Source of the DNA: Bacteroidales bacterium | GTDB taxonomy: Bacteria; Bacteroidota; Bacteroidia; Bacteroidales; WCHB1-69 | NCBI GenBank assembly: GCA_017616775.1 | Contig: JAFZXM010000059.1 | Location: 1-64,000, forward strand | Direction: 5' to 3' | DNA length: 64,000 bases | Shown: positions 30,817 through 40,123 of the stretch, in pieces | How positions within the stretch are numbered: the first letter of the stretch is position 1 | Layout of the letters: each line of letters starts with the position of its first letter | Made by a program: the position numbers and the translations under genes | The notes under the pieces: model-generated | The model's database searches: none | Told to the model about the DNA's origin: nothing | What the model saw: the letters and a program-made list of their open reading frames with translations, nothing else

Positions 30817-33071
30817 ACCCGACCGACAACAAGACAGGAATGGTCCGCAATATATTTCGTTTTAAAGCACGGTTTATCTATATATTGTTCGTAATTATAG
30901 GGATAATTGCCATTATCCGCATGGTTACCATCAAAACCACCTTGGGCAAATATTATCGCGGAATGAATATTCCGGCCGACAGCAGTATCACCACCCGGCA
31001 CCGCACATTTTCGTTTGAATATTCTTATGAAAACGGAAAAAGAGGGAATATATGCTCCGAAGACGGCACTGTTTTGCTGACCGACATATATATTTATGAC
31101 CTTTATTGGTATCCTGCCAAGGTCTCCTTCAACGATTCCGCCCTTTTTATGCAAAAAGCGGACAGCCTGATACAAATTTTTTATAGTATCAACCCTCAAA
31201 ACTCCATAGAGTTTTACAATAAAAATATCAAAGAAAAATATTCGGACTTCCGCAAACGCTTGGCTGCCGCCAAAGAACAAGAAGCCAGCAAAGACAAAAA
31301 AGTAGCTGCCAAGGGAAGGGAAGAACGTTTAAAACTGAATGCCGAAAAAGTACAAATATTGGTCTCCAACATTAACAATCCCAACCGCTGGGTACGACAA
31401 CGGCAAATAGACGCCATCGATTCATTGTTTGCACAATGGCACGGAGACAAACGTTTTAGAGGAGGATGTCAAAAAGACAGCCGCTTTGTACGTCGCCAGC
31501 TGTCCGGCGGTTTTCCTTCATCGGTGTTAGGCAAAGTAAGCACCTGTATCAGCCGCACCGGTACAGACAGCATGGTGTTTAACAACGGCATAGAAGGATA
31601 TTACGATACCGTTTTGGCAGGAGAACAAATACCCAAACGCATATTAAAGGTAAACGGTAAAACCATACGATTGCGTGAAAACAGGAATATACAGCCCAAC
31701 AACGGAAAAAATATCATCACCACCATCAATACCGATATACAGCGTATCACCAAATCGGCATTGGAACACCAAATGTTGAAAGGAAACGTGGAAAGCGGCT
31801 GTGCAATAGTGATGGAAGTGGCTACAGGAGAAATTAAAGCCATAGTCAACCTTGACTATGACCAAGCCACAGGCAGCTATGTTGAACGCAACGACCATAG
31901 TGCCACCGAAAGTTTTGAACCCGGTTCCACATTTAAAGTCATCACCCTTATGGCAGCATTGGAAACAGGAAAAATAGACACGGGCGATATTGTAAAATGT
32001 GAAAAAGGGCAGTTTTCTTTGGCCCGCGCCTTTGAAATATCCGACAATGAGGGATTGTTTGAAGCCGCCCAAAGAAGCTACGGAAATATCTCCGCCTTCG
32101 GATTGGGCATAGAAAAAATGGGATTACAAAAAGATTTGGACATTGAAATGAAGCATGCCAAAAGACCCATGCTGCAAAGTTTAACCAAAACCAACAGAGA
32201 CTTTAAAAACATCACCCACGGCTATAGTGTCAGCATCCCTCCCATTTATATGCTGGCCTTTTACAATGCTATAGCCAACAACGGAGTTTATGTTAAACCC
32301 CGTTTGATCAAAGCCATAGTGGACCCCAACAAAGAACGTGACAACAAAATTATTATCGAACCCATTATTGTGAAACAACGCATTTGTTCCCAACGGACCA
32401 TCAACAGGGTAAAAGCATGTCTGGAAGGTGTGGTTACCCATGGAACCGCCCGCAGAATAAGAGACGAACACTATTTTATCCAACTCAAAGACACCAACGC
32501 CACAGCCCGCCCGCTTATTGCGGGCAAAACCGGCACCGCTTTCATTTATGATGAAAAAGCCAAAGGGTATTCAAAAAAGAAAAACTCTTCGTTTATAGGC
32601 TATTTCCCCGCAGAAGCACCCAAATACACCTGTCTGGTGCTCACCAGAGGAACCACCTTGGATGCAGGCTATATAGCCGCTCCCGTGTGCAAAGAAATTG
32701 CCGAAAAACTGATTACCAATTTAAATGAATTCGACATCACCAACAAACATTTGGCCAAACAATTACCTTCCTGCAAATTGGGCTATTGCAATGATTTGAT
32801 CACCATATACAAAGAATTCGGCATCAAAGCCCAATACAATCAACACGGAGATTACGTCACTATAGAAAACGCCGACAACAACAAAGTGATATTCAACGAT
32901 GCCCAAACAGGTAAAGACAAATATCCCAATCTTATAGGTGCTAATGCAAAAGACGCTGTATATATATTGGAAAAAAGGGGATTCCATACCATAGTAAAAG
33001 GAAGAGGTAAAGTAAGCAATATAAGTTTTAACGGCAAAACAGCCTGCATATATTTAAATAACAATATATGA
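30813..33071 (+). CDS. ftsI: Division-specific penicillin-binding protein (FtsI/PBP3)
   Basis: The 752-residue septal transpeptidase has a short cytoplasmic N-terminus, one membrane helix (about 22-40), a non-catalytic domain and a transpeptidase domain. The three active-site motifs are STFK (Ser372-Lys375), SDN (410-412) and KTGT (572-575). A PASTA-like module with YPNLIGANAKDAVYILEKRG lies near the C-terminus. A Lys/Glu/Ala-rich, probably helical insertion (about residues 145-185) interrupts the pedestal region. It overlaps ftsL by 4 bases and murE by 4 bases (ATGA). Confidence 0.95.
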   Translation: MNPTDNKTGMVRNIFRFKARFIYILFVIIGIIAIIRMVTIKTTLGKYYRGMNIPADSSITTRHRTFSFEYSYENGKRGNICSEDGTVLLTDIYIYDLYWYPAKVSFNDSALFMQKADSLIQIFYSINPQNSIEFYNKNIKEKYSDFRKRLAAAKEQEASKDKKVAAKGREERLKLNAEKVQILVSNINNPNRWVRQRQIDAIDSLFAQWHGDKRFRGGCQKDSRFVRRQLSGGFPSSVLGKVSTCISRTGTDSMVFNNGIEGYYDTVLAGEQIPKRILKVNGKTIRLRENRNIQPNNGKNIITTINTDIQRITKSALEHQMLKGNVESGCAIVMEVATGEIKAIVNLDYDQATGSYVERNDHSATESFEPGSTFKVITLMAALETGKIDTGDIVKCEKGQFSLARAFEISDNEGLFEAAQRSYGNISAFGLGIEKMGLQKDLDIEMKHAKRPMLQSLTKTNRDFKNITHGYSVSIPPIYMLAFYNAIANNGVYVKPRLIKAIVDPNKERDNKIIIEPIIVKQRICSQRTINRVKACLEGVVTHGTARRIRDEHYFIQLKDTNATARPLIAGKTGTAFIYDEKAKGYSKKKNSSFIGYFPAEAPKYTCLVLTRGTTLDAGYIAAPVCKEIAEKLITNLNEFDITNKHLAKQLPSCKLGYCNDLITIYKEFGIKAQYNQHGDYVTIENADNNKVIFNDAQTGKDKYPNLIGANAKDAVYILEKRGFHTIVKGRGKVSNISFNGKTACIYLNNNI

Positions 33072-34522
33072 AACAAATAGAAGATATATTAAAAGGAGTA
33101 CAAACGCTTAAAATTGAGCAAATACAGCACTATCCCGTGTCAAAAATATGCTTTGATACGCGGCAGGTGGAAAACAATTGCGTATTTGTGGCTCAAAAAG
33201 GCACCAAAACAGACGGACATCAATTTATACCGCAAGCCATAGAAAACGGAGCCCGCTATATAGTATTGGAAGACATGCCTCCGCATCTTTGTCCTGAAAT
33301 ATGCTATATTCAGGTTGCCGACTCTTCGTTGGCTTTAGCTTTGATGGCTGCTAATTTTTTTGACCACCCGTCAAAAAAATTAAAATTGGTGGGCATTACC
33401 GGCACCAACGGCAAAACCACTACCGTCACCCTGCTCTACCGTTTGTTCCGCCTGCTGGGCAAAAAAACGGGGCTGCTCAGCACTATAGAAAACCGCATTA
33501 ACGACACCGTCATTCCCAGCACCCACACCACCGCCGACAGTGTCAAACTTAATGAGTTGATGGCAAAAATGGTGGAAGAAGAATGTGAATATTGTTTTAT
33601 GGAAGTAAGCTCGCATTCCATTGTGCAAAACCGTATAGCAGGTTTGCATTTTACCGGAGGCATATTTAGCAATCTTACGCACGACCACCTGGATTATCAC
33701 AAAACATTTGCCGAATATAGAAATGCTAAAAAAAGGTTTTTTGACCATTTGCCCGATACCGCTTTCGCCTTAACCAACATAGACGACCCCAACGGCAATA
33801 TCATGCTGCAAGAAACCAAAGCCCGCAAATACAGCTATAGCCTGCAAAACGGAAATTGCGATTTTAAAGCAAAAATGCTGGAATGCAATTTAGACGGAAT
33901 ACTCCTTTTGATTGACGGTAAAGAAGTGTGGTTTAAGTTGGTAGGCCGATTCAACGCTTACAATTTGCTGTGCATATACGGAACAGGGGTGCTGCTGGGC
34001 CTAAACAAAGAAGAATGCCTGATTAAAATGAGCATGCTGGATGCTGCAGAAGGAAGATTTTATACCATTAAAGGCAATAAGGTGAGTGTGATTGTGGATT
34101 ATGCCCACACCCCCGATGCTTTGCAAAATGTGTTGGAAACCATCAATCATGCCAGCGACAAATCACAAACTATCATCACCGTGGTGGGCTGCGGTGGCGA
34201 CAGAGATAAAAGCAAACGTCCCGAAATGGCGGAAATAGCATGCAAACTAAGCAACAGGGTAATACTCACTTCCGACAATCCCCGCAGCGAAGAACCCGAA
34301 GCCATACTGGCTGATATGGAAAAAGGCGTGAGCTCCGCCTACACCGCCACCACCCTGATTATCGCCGACAGGCGTCAAGCCATAAAAGCGGCTATTACAC
34401 AGGCCCCTGCTAACAGTATAATACTTATTGCAGGAAAAGGTCATGAAAAATACCAAGAAATTAAAGGAATCAAACATCATTTCGACGATGTGGAAGAAGC
34501 TGAAAAATATATCAATATGTAA
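33068..34522 (+). CDS. murE: UDP-MurNAc-tripeptide synthetase MurE (meso-DAP type)
   Basis: The 484-residue ligase adds the third amino acid to UDP-MurNAc-L-Ala-D-Glu. The ATP-binding GTNGKTT is at 112-118, HTTADSVKL lies after the substrate domain, and DNPR (403-406) is the signature of the meso-diaminopimelate-adding enzyme, in contrast to lysine-adding MurE. The C-terminal LIAGKGHEKYQEI is intact. So all three Mur domains are present here, unlike in the murD slot downstream. It overlaps ftsI by 4 bases and precedes mraY by 61 bases. Confidence 0.97.
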   Translation: MKQIEDILKGVQTLKIEQIQHYPVSKICFDTRQVENNCVFVAQKGTKTDGHQFIPQAIENGARYIVLEDMPPHLCPEICYIQVADSSLALALMAANFFDHPSKKLKLVGITGTNGKTTTVTLLYRLFRLLGKKTGLLSTIENRINDTVIPSTHTTADSVKLNELMAKMVEEECEYCFMEVSSHSIVQNRIAGLHFTGGIFSNLTHDHLDYHKTFAEYRNAKKRFFDHLPDTAFALTNIDDPNGNIMLQETKARKYSYSLQNGNCDFKAKMLECNLDGILLLIDGKEVWFKLVGRFNAYNLLCIYGTGVLLGLNKEECLIKMSMLDAAEGRFYTIKGNKVSVIVDYAHTPDALQNVLETINHASDKSQTIITVVGCGGDRDKSKRPEMAEIACKLSNRVILTSDNPRSEEPEAILADMEKGVSSAYTATTLIIADRRQAIKAAITQAPANSIILIAGKGHEKYQEIKGIKHHFDDVEEAEKYINM

Positions 34523-34583: not shown

Positions 34584-35843
34584 ATGCTATACTATCTTTT
34601 CAATTGGTTAGATAAAGTCACCCATATACCCGGAGCAGGTGTATTCAAATACATATCGTTCCGAACCGCCATGGCCGGTCTGTTATCATTATTTTTATCA
34701 ATGATAATAGGAAAATATATTATCAACATACTGCGAAAAAACCAAATAGGAGAAGATATCCGGGATTTGGGTCTGCAAGGTCAGTTGGAGAAAAAAGGAA
34801 CTCCCACCATGGGCGGCATTATCATATTATTCAGCATACTTATTCCCGTATTGCTATTCAACAAACTTGACAACATATATATCATTTTAATGATCATCAC
34901 TACAGCATGGCTGGGGTTGTTGGGATTTTTGGATGATTATATAAAAGTCAAAAAACACGATAAGGCAGGTCTTTCGGCCAAAGCCAAACTTTGCGGTCAG
35001 GCATTATTGGGTTTGTGCGTAGCTTTGGTGCTTTTCTTTCATCCCGATGTGGTAATAAAAGAAAAATGCAGCAAACCCGACTATGTGAACACCGAAAATG
35101 TATTCAAAATAGAAAACAATCCCAATGAAGGGACTACAGGTTATGAATGTGTGAATGCGGAAAAATCAACCAAAACCACCATTCCGTTTTTTAAAAACAA
35201 TGAATTGGACTATGCCGTGTTGCTCAAATGGATGGGTCCTGACTATGAAAAATGGGCATGGCTGATATACATTCCCATAATCATATTTATTATTATGGCT
35301 GTCAGCAACGGTGCCAATCTCACCGACGGACTTGACGGTTTGGCCATATCCGTAACCGCCATCATCGGGGCCACTTTGGGTGTGCTGGCATATGTTTCGG
35401 GTAATACCATCTTTGCGGACTATTTAAACATCATGTATATTCCCAACAGCGGGGAGTTGATGATATTCACGGGAGCCCTTGTGGGTGCTTGCCTTGGATT
35501 TATGTGGTGGAATTGCTTTCCGGCACAAATATTCATGGGAGATACAGGAAGCCTTGCCTTGGGTGGTATAGTTGCCGTTTTTGCCATTATCATCCGGAAA
35601 GAATTGCTCATACCCATACTTTGCGGCATCTATTTAGCCGAAAGTGTATCGGTATTGCTACAACGCGGCTATTTCAAATACACCCGGAAAAAATACGGGG
35701 AAGGAAAAAGATTGTTCCGCATGGCTCCTCTGCATCATCATTACCAACGTGCCGGCATGCATGAAACCAAAATAGTTCAACGATTTGTAATCATAGGGCT
35801 TATGTTGGCCGTTCTTACCATAGTAACTCTGAAATTACGCTAA
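34584..35843 (+). CDS. mraY: Phospho-N-acetylmuramoyl-pentapeptide-transferase MraY
   Basis: The 419-residue inner membrane enzyme makes lipid I by moving phospho-MurNAc-pentapeptide to undecaprenyl phosphate. Motifs are [43 protein letters not shown] and [14 protein letters not shown] loop of about 60 residues (around 155-210, rich in Lys, Asn and Glu) makes it longer than the E. coli enzyme, which is usual in Bacteroidota. The murD-like gene follows after 28 bases. Confidence 0.97.
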
Positions 35844-35871: not shown

Positions 35872-36417
35872 ATGAAATTTGAAGATTTAATAATTGACAA
35901 CGCCCAAACCTACAGCCAAAAAGCGAAACTGTTAGAACAAAAACTAATAGCCATACGCCAACGCAACAGGGGCGAGATATTAAGTAAAATTGACACCGAA
36001 ACACATAGAATGGAACATATCACTACTTTCAGAGGCGTGGATTTTGTTAACGATTCCAAATCGGAAAATGTCAATGCCACCTATTATTGCTTGGAACAAA
36101 TGAAAAGCAATGTGATATGGATAGTGGGCGGTGATGACAGCCTTACCAATTATGCCGACCTTACCGAAGTGGTGAAAAACAAAGTAACGGCCATAGTATG
36201 CATGAGTGAACATTGTGAAAAGATAAAACAAACTTTCAACGGATATGTTCCTGTAATATTAGAATGCAACAATATGGAAACAGCTGTACGCCAAGGTTTT
36301 TACGCCGCACAAAAAGGTGACATCGTGCTACTTTCCACAGCATGCAAATGCGATTCGCAATTTAAAGATTACAAACAACGCGGACTCGCATTTAGAAAAG
36401 CTATTGCCCAATTGTAA
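35872..36417 (+). CDS. murD: Isolated, diverged MurD C-terminal domain (no ATP-binding domain)
   Basis: This 181-residue protein occupies the murD position, but normal MurD has about 440-450 residues. Residues 42-181 align with the C-terminal domain of MurD: HRMEHITTFRGVDFVNDSKS, VIWIVGGDD and GDIVLLSTACKCDSQF. The D-Glu-binding lysine (Lys63 in NDSK) is kept. The usual SPxxASxDxF loop is changed to S155-T-A-C-K-C-D-S-Q-F164, losing the expected Ser and following hydrophobic residue. The N-terminal UDP-binding and central GTNGKT domains are absent: mraY ends only 28 bases upstream, so no hidden exon or frameshift can supply them. Residues 1-41 are unrelated and helical. It cannot be a functional ligase alone; a different role or a separate full MurD must exist. 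Confidence 0.85.
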   Translation: MKFEDLIIDNAQTYSQKAKLLEQKLIAIRQRNRGEILSKIDTETHRMEHITTFRGVDFVNDSKSENVNATYYCLEQMKSNVIWIVGGDDSLTNYADLTEVVKNKVTAIVCMSEHCEKIKQTFNGYVPVILECNNMETAVRQGFYAAQKGDIVLLSTACKCDSQFKDYKQRGLAFRKAIAQL

Positions 36418-36436: not shown

Positions 36437-37678
36437 ATGAAACTAAAGCAGATACTTCAATCGTTGGCCCGACAAAACTACGGAGACACCAGAATATGGA
36501 TAGTTGTCTTTATATTGGCCGCTTTTTCCATTATGGCAGTTTACAGCACCGGTGCCAAACTCAGCTATGGCAACCGCAACAGCCTGGGTTTTCTGTTTTC
36601 GGGGCATGTGATGTTTATCTTGTTGAGTTTTGTTGTGATTTTCATATTTCAAAAAATGAATTACAGAATATGGGGCAGATTATCCAACATTGGCCTCATT
36701 ATCGGTATTACAATGCTGGTGGCCACTTTGTTTTTAGGAGTATCCGAAGGGGGGTCAAAACGCAGTATAGAAATTTTCGGACATAAAATTCAAACCATAC
36801 ACTTTATAGAATTTTGTGTGGTGATATATCTTTCCGCATGGATCAGCAAAGCAAAAGACAAAATTAACGACATCAAGCATGTTTATTTACCCATGTTGGC
36901 CTATGTGCTGTTCTTCTGTGTGGTTATTATGACACAAAAAACATCGGCCAGCCTTATATTGGGATGTACCTGCATGGCCATGATATTTGTATCCCAACTC
37001 AAAAGCAAATATTTGTTTGCAACCTTCGGCATTGCTATTGTAATATTCAGTATAGGCATCGCTTTTCTTATGTCCGACGCCATTAACACTCAGGCTGAAA
37101 ACAAAATATTCAAACGGTTAACAACAGCCAAAGTGCGTATAGAAAATTTCAGCAACAAAGAAAACGTGCACAAAGACATACTTACTACCGAAGCGGCTAT
37201 AGCCTGTAGCGGACTGCTGCCCCACCCCGGCACCACCATCCACAGCAACAGCGTACAGGAAAGTTATTCCGACTATATATTCGCCTTCTTTGTAGAAGAA
37301 TATGGAATTCTTTTCGGCACATTATTGATATTGATGTATTTAATACTATTCTACAGGGCTGTTACCATAGCCAGAATGATGCCTACAGGCTTCGGTTCGT
37401 ATTTAGCCATAAGTATAGGATTTTTGATTACTTTCCAAGCATTTACCCATATTTGCGTGTGTTTGGGAATAGCTCCCGCTACAGGTGAAACACTTCCTCT
37501 GTTCAGCAAAGGAGGGGTATCCATACTCACTACAGCGGCAGAAATAGGCATATTGATCAATATTAGCAAAGAAGCTGACCGTATCAACAAAGAACGGCTG
37601 AAAAACAGCAGAAAAAAACAAACAACAGGAATAGAAAACAATATAGTTGAAGAAACAAACAATATACAACATGAATAA
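36437..37678 (+). CDS. ftsW: FtsW, peptidoglycan glycosyltransferase/lipid II polymerase of the divisome
   Basis: The SEDS-family membrane protein has about 10 helices. Recognisable segments include GGSKRSIEIFG after the third helix, the DYIFAFFVEEYGILFGTLL motif, and LPLFSKGGVSILTTAAEIG. The frame is open upstream to 36317, but the ATG at 36437 (MKLKQILQSLARQNYG, 413 residues) begins the normal sequence and follows the stop of the murD-like gene by 19 bases. The C-terminus is a Lys/Asn-rich cytoplasmic tail. The stop overlaps the start of murG by 8 bases. Confidence 0.95.
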   Translation: MKLKQILQSLARQNYGDTRIWIVVFILAAFSIMAVYSTGAKLSYGNRNSLGFLFSGHVMFILLSFVVIFIFQKMNYRIWGRLSNIGLIIGITMLVATLFLGVSEGGSKRSIEIFGHKIQTIHFIEFCVVIYLSAWISKAKDKINDIKHVYLPMLAYVLFFCVVIMTQKTSASLILGCTCMAMIFVSQLKSKYLFATFGIAIVIFSIGIAFLMSDAINTQAENKIFKRLTTAKVRIENFSNKENVHKDILTTEAAIACSGLLPHPGTTIHSNSVQESYSDYIFAFFVEEYGILFGTLLILMYLILFYRAVTIARMMPTGFGSYLAISIGFLITFQAFTHICVCLGIAPATGETLPLFSKGGVSILTTAAEIGILINISKEADRINKERLKNSRKKQTTGIENNIVEETNNIQHE

Positions 37679-38783
37679 AAAAATAATCATTTCCGGAGGT
37701 GGCACGGGAGGTCATATTTTTCCTGCCATAGCCATAGCCAATGCGGCAAAAAACCGTTGGCCCGATGCCGAAATATTATTTATTGGCGCCGAAGGCAGAA
37801 TGGAAATGGAAAAAGTACCGGCGGCAGGTTATGCCATTAAAGGTCTTCCCATTGCAGGACTTCAACGTCAACTGTCCATAGCCAATATCGTCAAAAATTT
37901 ACAACTGCCTTTTAAACTGATAAAAAGCCACAAAATGGTGAAGAATATACTAAAAGAATTTCAACCCGATATTGTGGTGGGTGTAGGCGGATTTGCAAGT
38001 GAGCCTACACTCAAAACGGCTGCTTCCATGGGTTTCCATACTCTTTTGCAGGAACAAAATTCCTATGCCGGTCTCACCAACAAAATATTAGCCGGTCACG
38101 CTGACACCATCTGTGTGGCTTACGAAGGAATGGAACGCTTTTTCCCGAAAGAAAAGATAGTCTTTACCGGCAATCCCGTCAGAAAAGATATAGAACAAAT
38201 GAACGGTTCCCGGGAAGAAGGAATAGCCCATTTCAACCTTAACGGTGACAAAAAGATTGTGCTTGTAGTGGGAGGTAGCCTTGGTGCCCGCAGCATCAAC
38301 AACATGATGCTGAACAGTTTCGGTTTTGCAAAAACCAACTCCGTGCAATTTATATGGCAAACAGGCCGCCATATGTATGATATAGCTGCAGAAGCAGTGA
38401 AAAAAAACAATATGGAAGACTATATCAAAGTGCATCAATTCATTTCCCGCATGGACCTTGCCTACGCTGCGGCAGATATTGTTATTTCAAGAGCCGGAGC
38501 TATCGCCATTTCCGAACTTTGTCTGGTGGGAAAACCTGTGGTGCTTATTCCTTCACCCAATGTGGCTGAAGACCACCAAACCAAAAACGCCATGGCCCTG
38601 GTAAACAAAGGAGCTGCCGTGATGGTGAAAGATGTGGAATGCGACACACAATGCCTTCCTCTATTAGAACAACTGTTGAACGACGCTCAACGCCAAACAA
38701 CCATGCGTGAAGCTATCAGCGCTCTGGCAATGAAAGGTGCTGCAGATAAGATTGTGGATCAAATAGCTAAAATTATAGAATGA
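37671..38783 (+). CDS. murG: MurG, lipid I N-acetylglucosaminyltransferase
   Basis: The 370-residue enzyme adds GlcNAc to lipid I to make lipid II at the inner membrane face. Motifs are GGGTGGHIFPAIAIA near the start, GVGGFASEPTL, GGSLGARSIN, and ISRAGAIAISELCLVGKPVVLIPSPN followed by DHQTKNA. The start at 37671 (MNKKIIISGGGTGG) overlaps ftsW by 8 bases; the longer frame from 37647 would need a TTG start. Its stop overlaps murC by 4 bases. Confidence 0.97.
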   Translation: MNKKIIISGGGTGGHIFPAIAIANAAKNRWPDAEILFIGAEGRMEMEKVPAAGYAIKGLPIAGLQRQLSIANIVKNLQLPFKLIKSHKMVKNILKEFQPDIVVGVGGFASEPTLKTAASMGFHTLLQEQNSYAGLTNKILAGHADTICVAYEGMERFFPKEKIVFTGNPVRKDIEQMNGSREEGIAHFNLNGDKKIVLVVGGSLGARSINNMMLNSFGFAKTNSVQFIWQTGRHMYDIAAEAVKKNNMEDYIKVHQFISRMDLAYAAADIVISRAGAIAISELCLVGKPVVLIPSPNVAEDHQTKNAMALVNKGAAVMVKDVECDTQCLPLLEQLLNDAQRQTTMREAISALAMKGAADKIVDQIAKIIE

Positions 38784-40123
38784 GATATTATTTTTTAGGT
38801 ATAGGAGGCATAGGTATGAGCGCTCTCGCACGCTATTTTCACCAACAAGGAATGATGGTGAGCGGCTATGACCGTACCCCTTCCCCCCTTACCGAAACTT
38901 TGATTGGCGAAGGTATTGCCGTTCATTATCAAGACAATCCTGAACTGATACCCGAAAATATTGATACGGTTATATACACCCCGGCCATTCCTGCCGATAA
39001 CCGGGAATTCCGATATCTGCAACAAAAAGGTATTCCCATGTACAAACGCTCGCAAATATTAGGGCATATTTGTACCAACGATTTTAACCGCACCCTTGCG
39101 GTTGCCGGCAGTCATGGAAAAACATCCACTTCCTCTATTCTGACACATCTGCTCAGCGGAGACAGACCCGTTTCGGCATTTATAGGCGGTATAGCCAATA
39201 ATTTTAATGCCAACTATATTTTCCGGTCAGGAGCCGATGACGTGGTGGTGGAAGCTGATGAATACGACAGATCTTTTCTTACCCTTCATCCTTATCTGGC
39301 CATTATAACATCCATGGATGCCGACCATTTGGATATCTACGGCTCTCAAAATTCACTTATAGACGCATTCAACCATTTCGCTTCACAAATACACAAACAA
39401 GGATACCTTATCACAAAACCCCATCTGATGCCGTTGCTTCATCCGCAATGTAAAATTATCAGCTACTCCCTCCATGACAATACATGCCTGTATCACGCCG
39501 ATAATATCTGCATAAGCAACGGAAAACAATATTTTGACATTATATGCCCTTCGCATAAAATAAAAGATGTTTCCATGGAAACAGCGGGAAACTATTATAT
39601 AGAAAATGCCGTTGCCGCTGTTGCGGCAGCAGAAATCCTGGGGGTGAACGATGACGTTATCCGAAAACAACTGGCCTCTTTTACCGGCGTAAAACGCCGT
39701 TTTGACTATATTGTCAAACAAGCTGACTTTATATATATAGACGACTATGCCCATCATCCCAACGAGATAAAAGCCTGCATCTCTTCAGCCCGGATGATGC
39801 ATCCCGACAAACATATCTGCGGCATTTTTCAACCGCACCTTTATACACGCACCCGCGATTTTGCCGATGAATTTGCTCAAGCTTTGAGCATGCTGGACAG
39901 TGTGGCTTTATTAGACATTTATCCCGCAAGAGAATTGCCTATTGAAGGTATCAACTCTCAATTTTTGTTGGATAAAATCACCTTGAAAGACAAAATATTG
40001 CTACAAAAGAATGAAATAACCGACTATATTGCCTCCCGTAAACCCGAAGTGCTGCTTACCATGGGTGCCGGCGATATAGACAGAATGGTGAATATGATTA
40101 AAGAAAGGTTTGCCCATGAATAA
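38780..40123 (+). CDS. murC: UDP-N-acetylmuramate--L-alanine ligase MurC
   Basis: This 447-residue ligase adds L-Ala to UDP-MurNAc. It has the complete Mur architecture: GIGGIGMSALAR (7-18), AGSHGKTSTSS for ATP binding, VVEADEYDRSFL in the central domain, and DDYAHHPNEIKA with the start of the C-terminal domain. Length is normal. Because MurC and MurE are both intact, loss of domains in the murD slot is specific. The ATG overlaps the murG stop by 4 bases, and the 3' end overlaps ftsQ by 8. Confidence 0.97.
   Translation: MRYYFLGIGGIGMSALARYFHQQGMMVSGYDRTPSPLTETLIGEGIAVHYQDNPELIPENIDTVIYTPAIPADNREFRYLQQKGIPMYKRSQILGHICTNDFNRTLAVAGSHGKTSTSSILTHLLSGDRPVSAFIGGIANNFNANYIFRSGADDVVVEADEYDRSFLTLHPYLAIITSMDADHLDIYGSQNSLIDAFNHFASQIHKQGYLITKPHLMPLLHPQCKIISYSLHDNTCLYHADNICISNGKQYFDIICPSHKIKDVSMETAGNYYIENAVAAVAAAEILGVNDDVIRKQLASFTGVKRRFDYIVKQADFIYIDDYAHHPNEIKACISSARMMHPDKHICGIFQPHLYTRTRDFADEFAQALSMLDSVALLDIYPARELPIEGINSQFLLDKITLKDKILLQKNEITDYIASRKPEVLLTMGAGDIDRMVNMIKERFAHE

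Follow-up and report, generated by a model that had tools for sequence, protein, structure and literature searches.

The window, the whole 64,000-nucleotide stretch analysed here, is part of one contig (C34) of a draft genome of 2.10 Mb in 60 contigs (93.5% complete, 0.08% contaminated). It carries a dcw cluster on the forward strand. Profile searches identified murE (33068..34522) and an intact mraY (34584..35843), followed further on by an intact ftsW (36437..37678) and an intact murC (38780..40123); murG (37647..38783), which lies between these two, was assigned from its dcw position and what is known of the family. The ftsW frame opens with the ATG at 36437, and the GTG start listed at 36317 is a mechanical call. 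The only open reading frame from mraY to ftsW is a gene of 181 codons (35872..36417, forward strand), which runs cleanly from ATG to TAA and is separated by 28 bp from the end of mraY and by 19 bp from the ATG of ftsW. This gene, the MurD stub, encodes a MurD C-terminal domain without the rest of the enzyme, as indicated by a partial match to TIGR01087, a match to PF02875, an AlphaFold model and a position shared with relatives. An Rfam search of the region gave no match and an RNA element was rejected.

The NCBIfam murD model (TIGR01087) matches the stub only at model positions 280-439 of 441 (E-value 2.6e-36). The score of 125.7 bits lies below the model cut-off of 211.95 bits (about 212) and the three domains of the enzyme are not all present, so the stub does not qualify as a D-Glu-adding MurD. 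It does belong to the Mur ligase C-terminal domain family PF02875 (Mur_ligase_C; 44.6 bits, gathering cut-off 28.4), in agreement with its fold. NCBIfam and Pfam profile searches detected no N-terminal or middle domain in the stub, and the domain with the GxxGKT P-loop is absent. Residues 1-44 (35872..36003) correspond approximately to a residual stretch from the middle domain's end, with the start methionine aligned to a conserved internal methionine of full-length MurD, and residues 45-181 (36004..36414) form the C-terminal domain. The AlphaFold model of the stub (32 relatives) has a mean pLDDT of 83.8, with values above 90 at nearly all of residues 50-181. The best PDB matches of this predicted model are MurD C-terminal domains (rmsd 1.6 Å over 143 columns).

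Two substrate residues of MurD, K348 and S415, are lost from this domain. The NDSK motif (36049..36060; D317 and K319 of Escherichia coli MurD) is kept, and its lysine is lost in most stubs of the window's family. The GGxDKG motif is replaced with GGDDS (36127..36141), in which serine stands in the place of K348, the D-Glu-contacting lysine of the E. coli enzyme. This lysine is present in 56/56 full-length proteins and is not among the residues listed for 34 family stubs. The SPxCASFDLF loop reads STACKCDSQF (36334..36363) and the S415 and L416 positions are lost in the alignment. The stub by itself cannot be a ligase. An earlier note made from the sequence alone had described a 181-codon gene in the murD slot holding only the C-terminal domain of MurD, without the UDP-binding and ATP-binding domains, with the changed loop and the retained NDSK motif, next to an intact MurC and a MurE of the meso-DAP type. 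The profile matches, coordinates and motifs agree with this description, including the DNPRSE motif of MurE and a MurC score above the TIGR01082 cut-off. The match to the tail of MurD was also correct, but its length is about 160 residues and not the 140 given, since the first 40 or so codons are the middle-domain remnant.

Seven Mur ligase middle domains were found in the genome. They belong to MurE, the dcw MurC, MurF (split at a contig end), a MurF-alanine racemase fusion, FolC, an Mpl-like ligase and a protein of 459 amino acids encoded on contig C31. A second MurF gene seems to be split by an assembly gap, with its N-terminal part at C32:2-868 and its Mur_ligase_C domain at C33:60-389. 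The C31 protein is full length and scores above the murD cut-off at 327 bits. Its motifs (FEEHLD, NDSIST, GGMDRG) place glutamate at the D182 position, isoleucine at K319 and arginine at K348. In Xanthomonas MurD2 the choice of L-Glu is set by E197 and R358, which occupy the D182 and K348 positions (PMC8788868), and the residues of the C31 protein at these two positions are those of MurD2. We infer that the C31 ligase uses L-Glu.

Glutamate racemase (MurI) was not found in the window genome by a search that was positive in most control genomes, and MurI was rejected as its source of D-Glu. A D-amino-acid aminotransferase was rejected as well: the sole class IV aminotransferase is a protein of 338 amino acids that reads as IlvE-type. 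A MurL homologue is encoded at C44:10011-11420. It matches NF041275 over nearly its full length (254 bits, E-value 1.9e-75), below the equivalog cut-off of 700 bits that was set for Xanthomonadales, and by sequence it is a member of the same wider family and not the Xanthomonadales equivalog. In seven relatives murD2 directly follows a gene of about 460 amino acids which NCBIfam places in the MurL family. The MurD2 switch residues, the absence of MurI and the presence of a MurL homologue together indicate that D-Glu probably enters the precursor as L-Glu and is then epimerised, as in Xanthomonas. Such a route would relieve the stub in the dcw cluster of a ligase job.

Among 148 genomes of the order, mostly drafts and metagenome-assembled genomes, MurL is present in 50, MurI in 92 and both in none, indicating that MurL stands in place of the racemase. 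Of the 50 genomes with MurL, 23 carry a stub at the mraY-ftsW site, 24 instead have murD at full length, intact or cut by a contig end, and three are unreadable (mraY is missing from the assemblies of G054 and G154, and has moved in G108). None of the 47 readable loci lacks a MurD domain between mraY and ftsW. Conversely, no stub was found in the readable genomes with MurI; the single short match there (G176) extends beyond the end of its contig. Within the window's family the stub occupies the mraY-ftsW site in 34/36 genomes, and the gene is full length in the two others, both from genus g15. The length of the stub is nearly constant at 175-194 amino acids. A scan of named genomes based on a narrow alignment found stubs in four uncultured Bacteroidales, of which two have titles that point to ruminant samples.

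Several genomes deserve separate mention. G106, G118, G145 and G152 have a full-length MurD, and neither MurI nor MurL passed the search thresholds in them. The MurL match spans one or two in-frame stops in the family genomes G005, G007, G014, G017, G029 and G033. The stub of G102 (L207:2076-2639) is very diverged, scores 50 bits with the murD model and was seen only by reading the mraY-ftsW junction, which suggests that standard searches are likely to miss short stubs.

The truncation happened repeatedly and independently. A MraY+MurE tree of 93 genomes, obtained by a quick search with LG+G4 on two genes, requires at least 15 changes between stub and full-length gene, of which at least 10 are forced by well-supported branches. 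A single ancestral truncation was rejected: constraining the MurL-containing stub genomes to a single clade lowers the log-likelihood by 299 units (p-AU 4.4e-5). Splits are visible even within genera, where G082 has a stub and G178 a full-length gene, and likewise G068 and G170. Transfer could have restored the lost two-thirds of the gene at its site, and would have had to do so many times. In an alignment of 54 stubs with 56 full-length proteins, 47/54 stubs start in one column, bearing in mind that the aligner may draw stub starts together. That column holds methionine in 49/56 full-length proteins and isoleucine in the other 7/56. Some stubs read MTLEELAQTGTQ or MTLEKLALQGKQ against MTLEELALQGKHN at the start, so this homology is visible by eye. 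An internal translation start used in all full-length genes was considered and is weak as a proposal, because of those 7/56 isoleucines.

The stub has not pseudogenized. Frames are open in the stubs that were read, and dN/dS (Nei-Gojobori) ranges from 0.02 to 0.12. In two close pairs from the window's own genus the stub values are 0.019 and 0.025, next to 0.023 and 0.017 for mraY and lower than those of murE, ftsW, murG and murC. Four other pairs gave 0.038, 0.056, 0.10 and 0.12, and two close pairs showed faster evolution of the stub than of mraY. Purifying selection together with repeated retention means that the stub has some role. The earlier note had held that the gene is not simple decay, and these values and its recurrence at the same place in relatives bear this out. 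The note had also named an assembly deletion, or a full-length gene in all relatives, as reasons to abandon its reading. The comparison of dcw loci disposes of both, as the same short gene lies at the same place in relatives and is the norm in the family. It had further left a choice between another full MurD elsewhere, with a new role for the domain, and a different way of adding D-Glu. The genome-wide search for a second Mur ligase uncovered the full-length MurD-family protein on C31 with its MurD2-type residues, and these residues, the lack of MurI and the MurL homologue support the different route, so both options appear to hold together.

The conserved residues of the stubs are not those of the active site. 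The family stubs have another residue in place of K348 and mostly lack the S415 loop, but retain D317, W83, K104-V105, A138-V139, F174 and L181. The family has also gained residues that are not fixed in full-length MurD, namely L25, E136, Y144 and a C-terminal AQL (28/34). By its sequence this is the picture of a protein probably kept for its fold and surface and not for its active site. Decay of the catalytic motifs was looked for in the full-length MurDs of genomes with MurL and was not seen. With their motifs intact these proteins may still be enzymes, acting for example on salvaged D-Glu, and a full-length MurD is thus not useless to lineages that lack MurI.

The best explanation of these observations, and a fairly probable one, is that the MurD role passed to MurD2 and MurL, and that the stub serves the precursor complex as a structural or regulatory subunit without a catalytic role. 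An ancestor would have gained a murL-murD2 pair and lost glutamate racemase, leaving the canonical MurD without an enzymatic job. The MurD2-type ligase encoded on C31 would add L-Glu to UDP-MurNAc-L-Ala, and the MurL encoded on C44 would convert the added residue into D-Glu. Loss of the UDP- and ATP-binding domains from the dcw murD could then have occurred in many independent events, each leaving a C-terminal domain protein, usually from the same internal methionine. The domain would have been retained because of a second, non-catalytic function, in which the stub would dock in a membrane-proximal precursor complex with MraY, MurG, FtsW and perhaps MreB.

Docking with these partners is the most likely form of such a role. 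In Thermotoga maritima MurD binds MurG and MreB, as do MurE and MurF, and MurG was proposed as the scaffold (PMC6420597; PMC4929429). For mycobacterial Mur ligases, interactions with FtsW, FtsZ and FtsQ have been reported (PMC3605390). The Thermotoga work concerns whole MurD; these reports and the location of the stub gene, flanked by mraY and ftsW with murG one gene further on, point to docking or regulation. Within the window murG, which has orthologues in the relatives, is a candidate partner. Several points count against the best explanation: gene fusions and co-variation singled out no partner, other lineages with MurL retain a full-length MurD whose catalytic motifs are intact, the stub outpaces mraY in two close pairs, and the family MurL scores far below its equivalog cut-off.

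Alternatively, the stub could belong to the new enzymes as a subunit or activate them, binding MurD2 or MurL and tuning L-Glu ligation or epimerisation. Stubs are found almost only in genomes with MurL, and new conserved positions arose in the family, both as expected from such a partnership. However, about half of the genomes with MurL use a full-length MurD instead, and murD2 and murL sit elsewhere in the genome. One genome (G049) carries a diverged stub, yet neither MurL nor MurD2 was found in it: its Mur ligases are an Mpl-like protein, MurE and MurF only, and searches for MurC, a full MurD and MurI were likewise negative. A stub without MurL supports the independence of the stub from the new enzymes, and this alternative is rather unlikely. 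The G049 genome (L212-L215; contigs C3, C4 and C5) is 2.1 Mb in size and 98% complete, with two ftsZ-like genes in tandem after ftsA; the organism may live on salvaged murein tripeptide.

There is only a slim chance that the stub is a slowly dying remnant whose loss would upset translation or transcription from mraY to ftsW. The tight operon with its short gaps and the strong divergence of some stubs (25-30% identity) would fit this. The low dN/dS in six pairs, the core residues conserved in 54 stubs, the newly gained conserved residues, the constant length and the lack of any complete loss in readable loci with MurL instead indicate that selection acts on the stub protein. A retained ligand-binding or catalytic role, such as sensing of D-Glu, the dipeptide product or a nucleotide, is equally improbable. 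D317 is present in 54/54 stubs, and many stubs outside the family hold K319 and GGxDKG. Against this, neither the UDP nor the ATP domain is present, the family stubs and 13/20 others no longer have K348, and most family stubs also lack the S415 loop. Finally, a full-length murD concealed by an assembly or annotation artefact could be imagined in a draft of 60 contigs, but dozens of separate assemblies share the gene and its junctions, and the relatives refute it almost completely.

The stub resembles full-length MurD in identity (about 35-45% to the domain of full-length relatives), in fold (Foldseek E-value 1e-12) and in its position between mraY and ftsW, but lacks two of the three domains and the D-Glu contacts. 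The surrounding pathway resembles MurD2/MurL of Xanthomonas oryzae (PMC8788868), where MurI is likewise missing, the ligase is changed in the same way at D182 and K348, and a MurL-family protein is present. Adjacent murL and murD2 genes in several relatives add to the likeness, as do fusion-length frames in two. In these two the MurL match lies in frames of 885 and 949 amino acids (G110:C12:31041-32399; G135:C329:5508-6875), the length of a MurL-MurD2 fusion. The present case differs in that the organisms are Bacteroidales, MurL falls under the Xanthomonadales cut-off and the original MurD persists, either entire or as a single domain. A review of the MurD2/MurL pathway does not list Bacteroidales (PMC8788868).

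Other Mur ligase relatives outside the canonical pathway offer looser parallels. PAP11, the MurE-like subunit of the plastid RNA polymerase, is also a Mur ligase relative retained in a complex. Plastid polymerase chains 8qma_O and 9epc_Q, which we take to be PAP11, are among the fold matches of the stub, though PAP11 is MurE-like, belongs to a different complex and matches weakly (E-value 8e-4). MurT of GatD/MurT is a further fold match with the Mur ligase fold outside MurC-F; it is ligase-like, with an ATP domain and a catalytic role, whereas the stub has no ATP domain. Searches of a set of open-access papers found neither a standalone MurD C-terminal-domain protein nor MurD2 in Bacteroidetes. 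MurD, MurD2 and MurL are already known; a lone MurD C-terminal domain, repeatedly kept and under selection, appears to be new.

The MurD2/MurL wall pathway is hereby extended to about a third (50/148) of the sampled genomes of one Bacteroidota order. Whether Mur ligases join MurG, MraY and the division machinery in a complex has long been debated, and the case for it rested mainly on pull-downs, two-hybrid assays and co-localisation. That the catalytic domains were lost repeatedly and a protein of about 180 residues kept is independent evolutionary evidence for a non-catalytic role of MurD, suggests that its tail domain does a second job, and names the piece of MurD to test, the C-terminal domain. 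A broader proposal, plausible but a little short of an even chance, is that MurD of Bacteroidales always had two jobs, as a ligase and in an essential docking or regulatory function of its C-terminal domain, and was stripped repeatedly once MurD2 and MurL took over the first. If this is true, the stub would amount to a naturally occurring separation-of-function version of an enzyme targeted by antibiotics, and the debated Mur complex could be approached through it.
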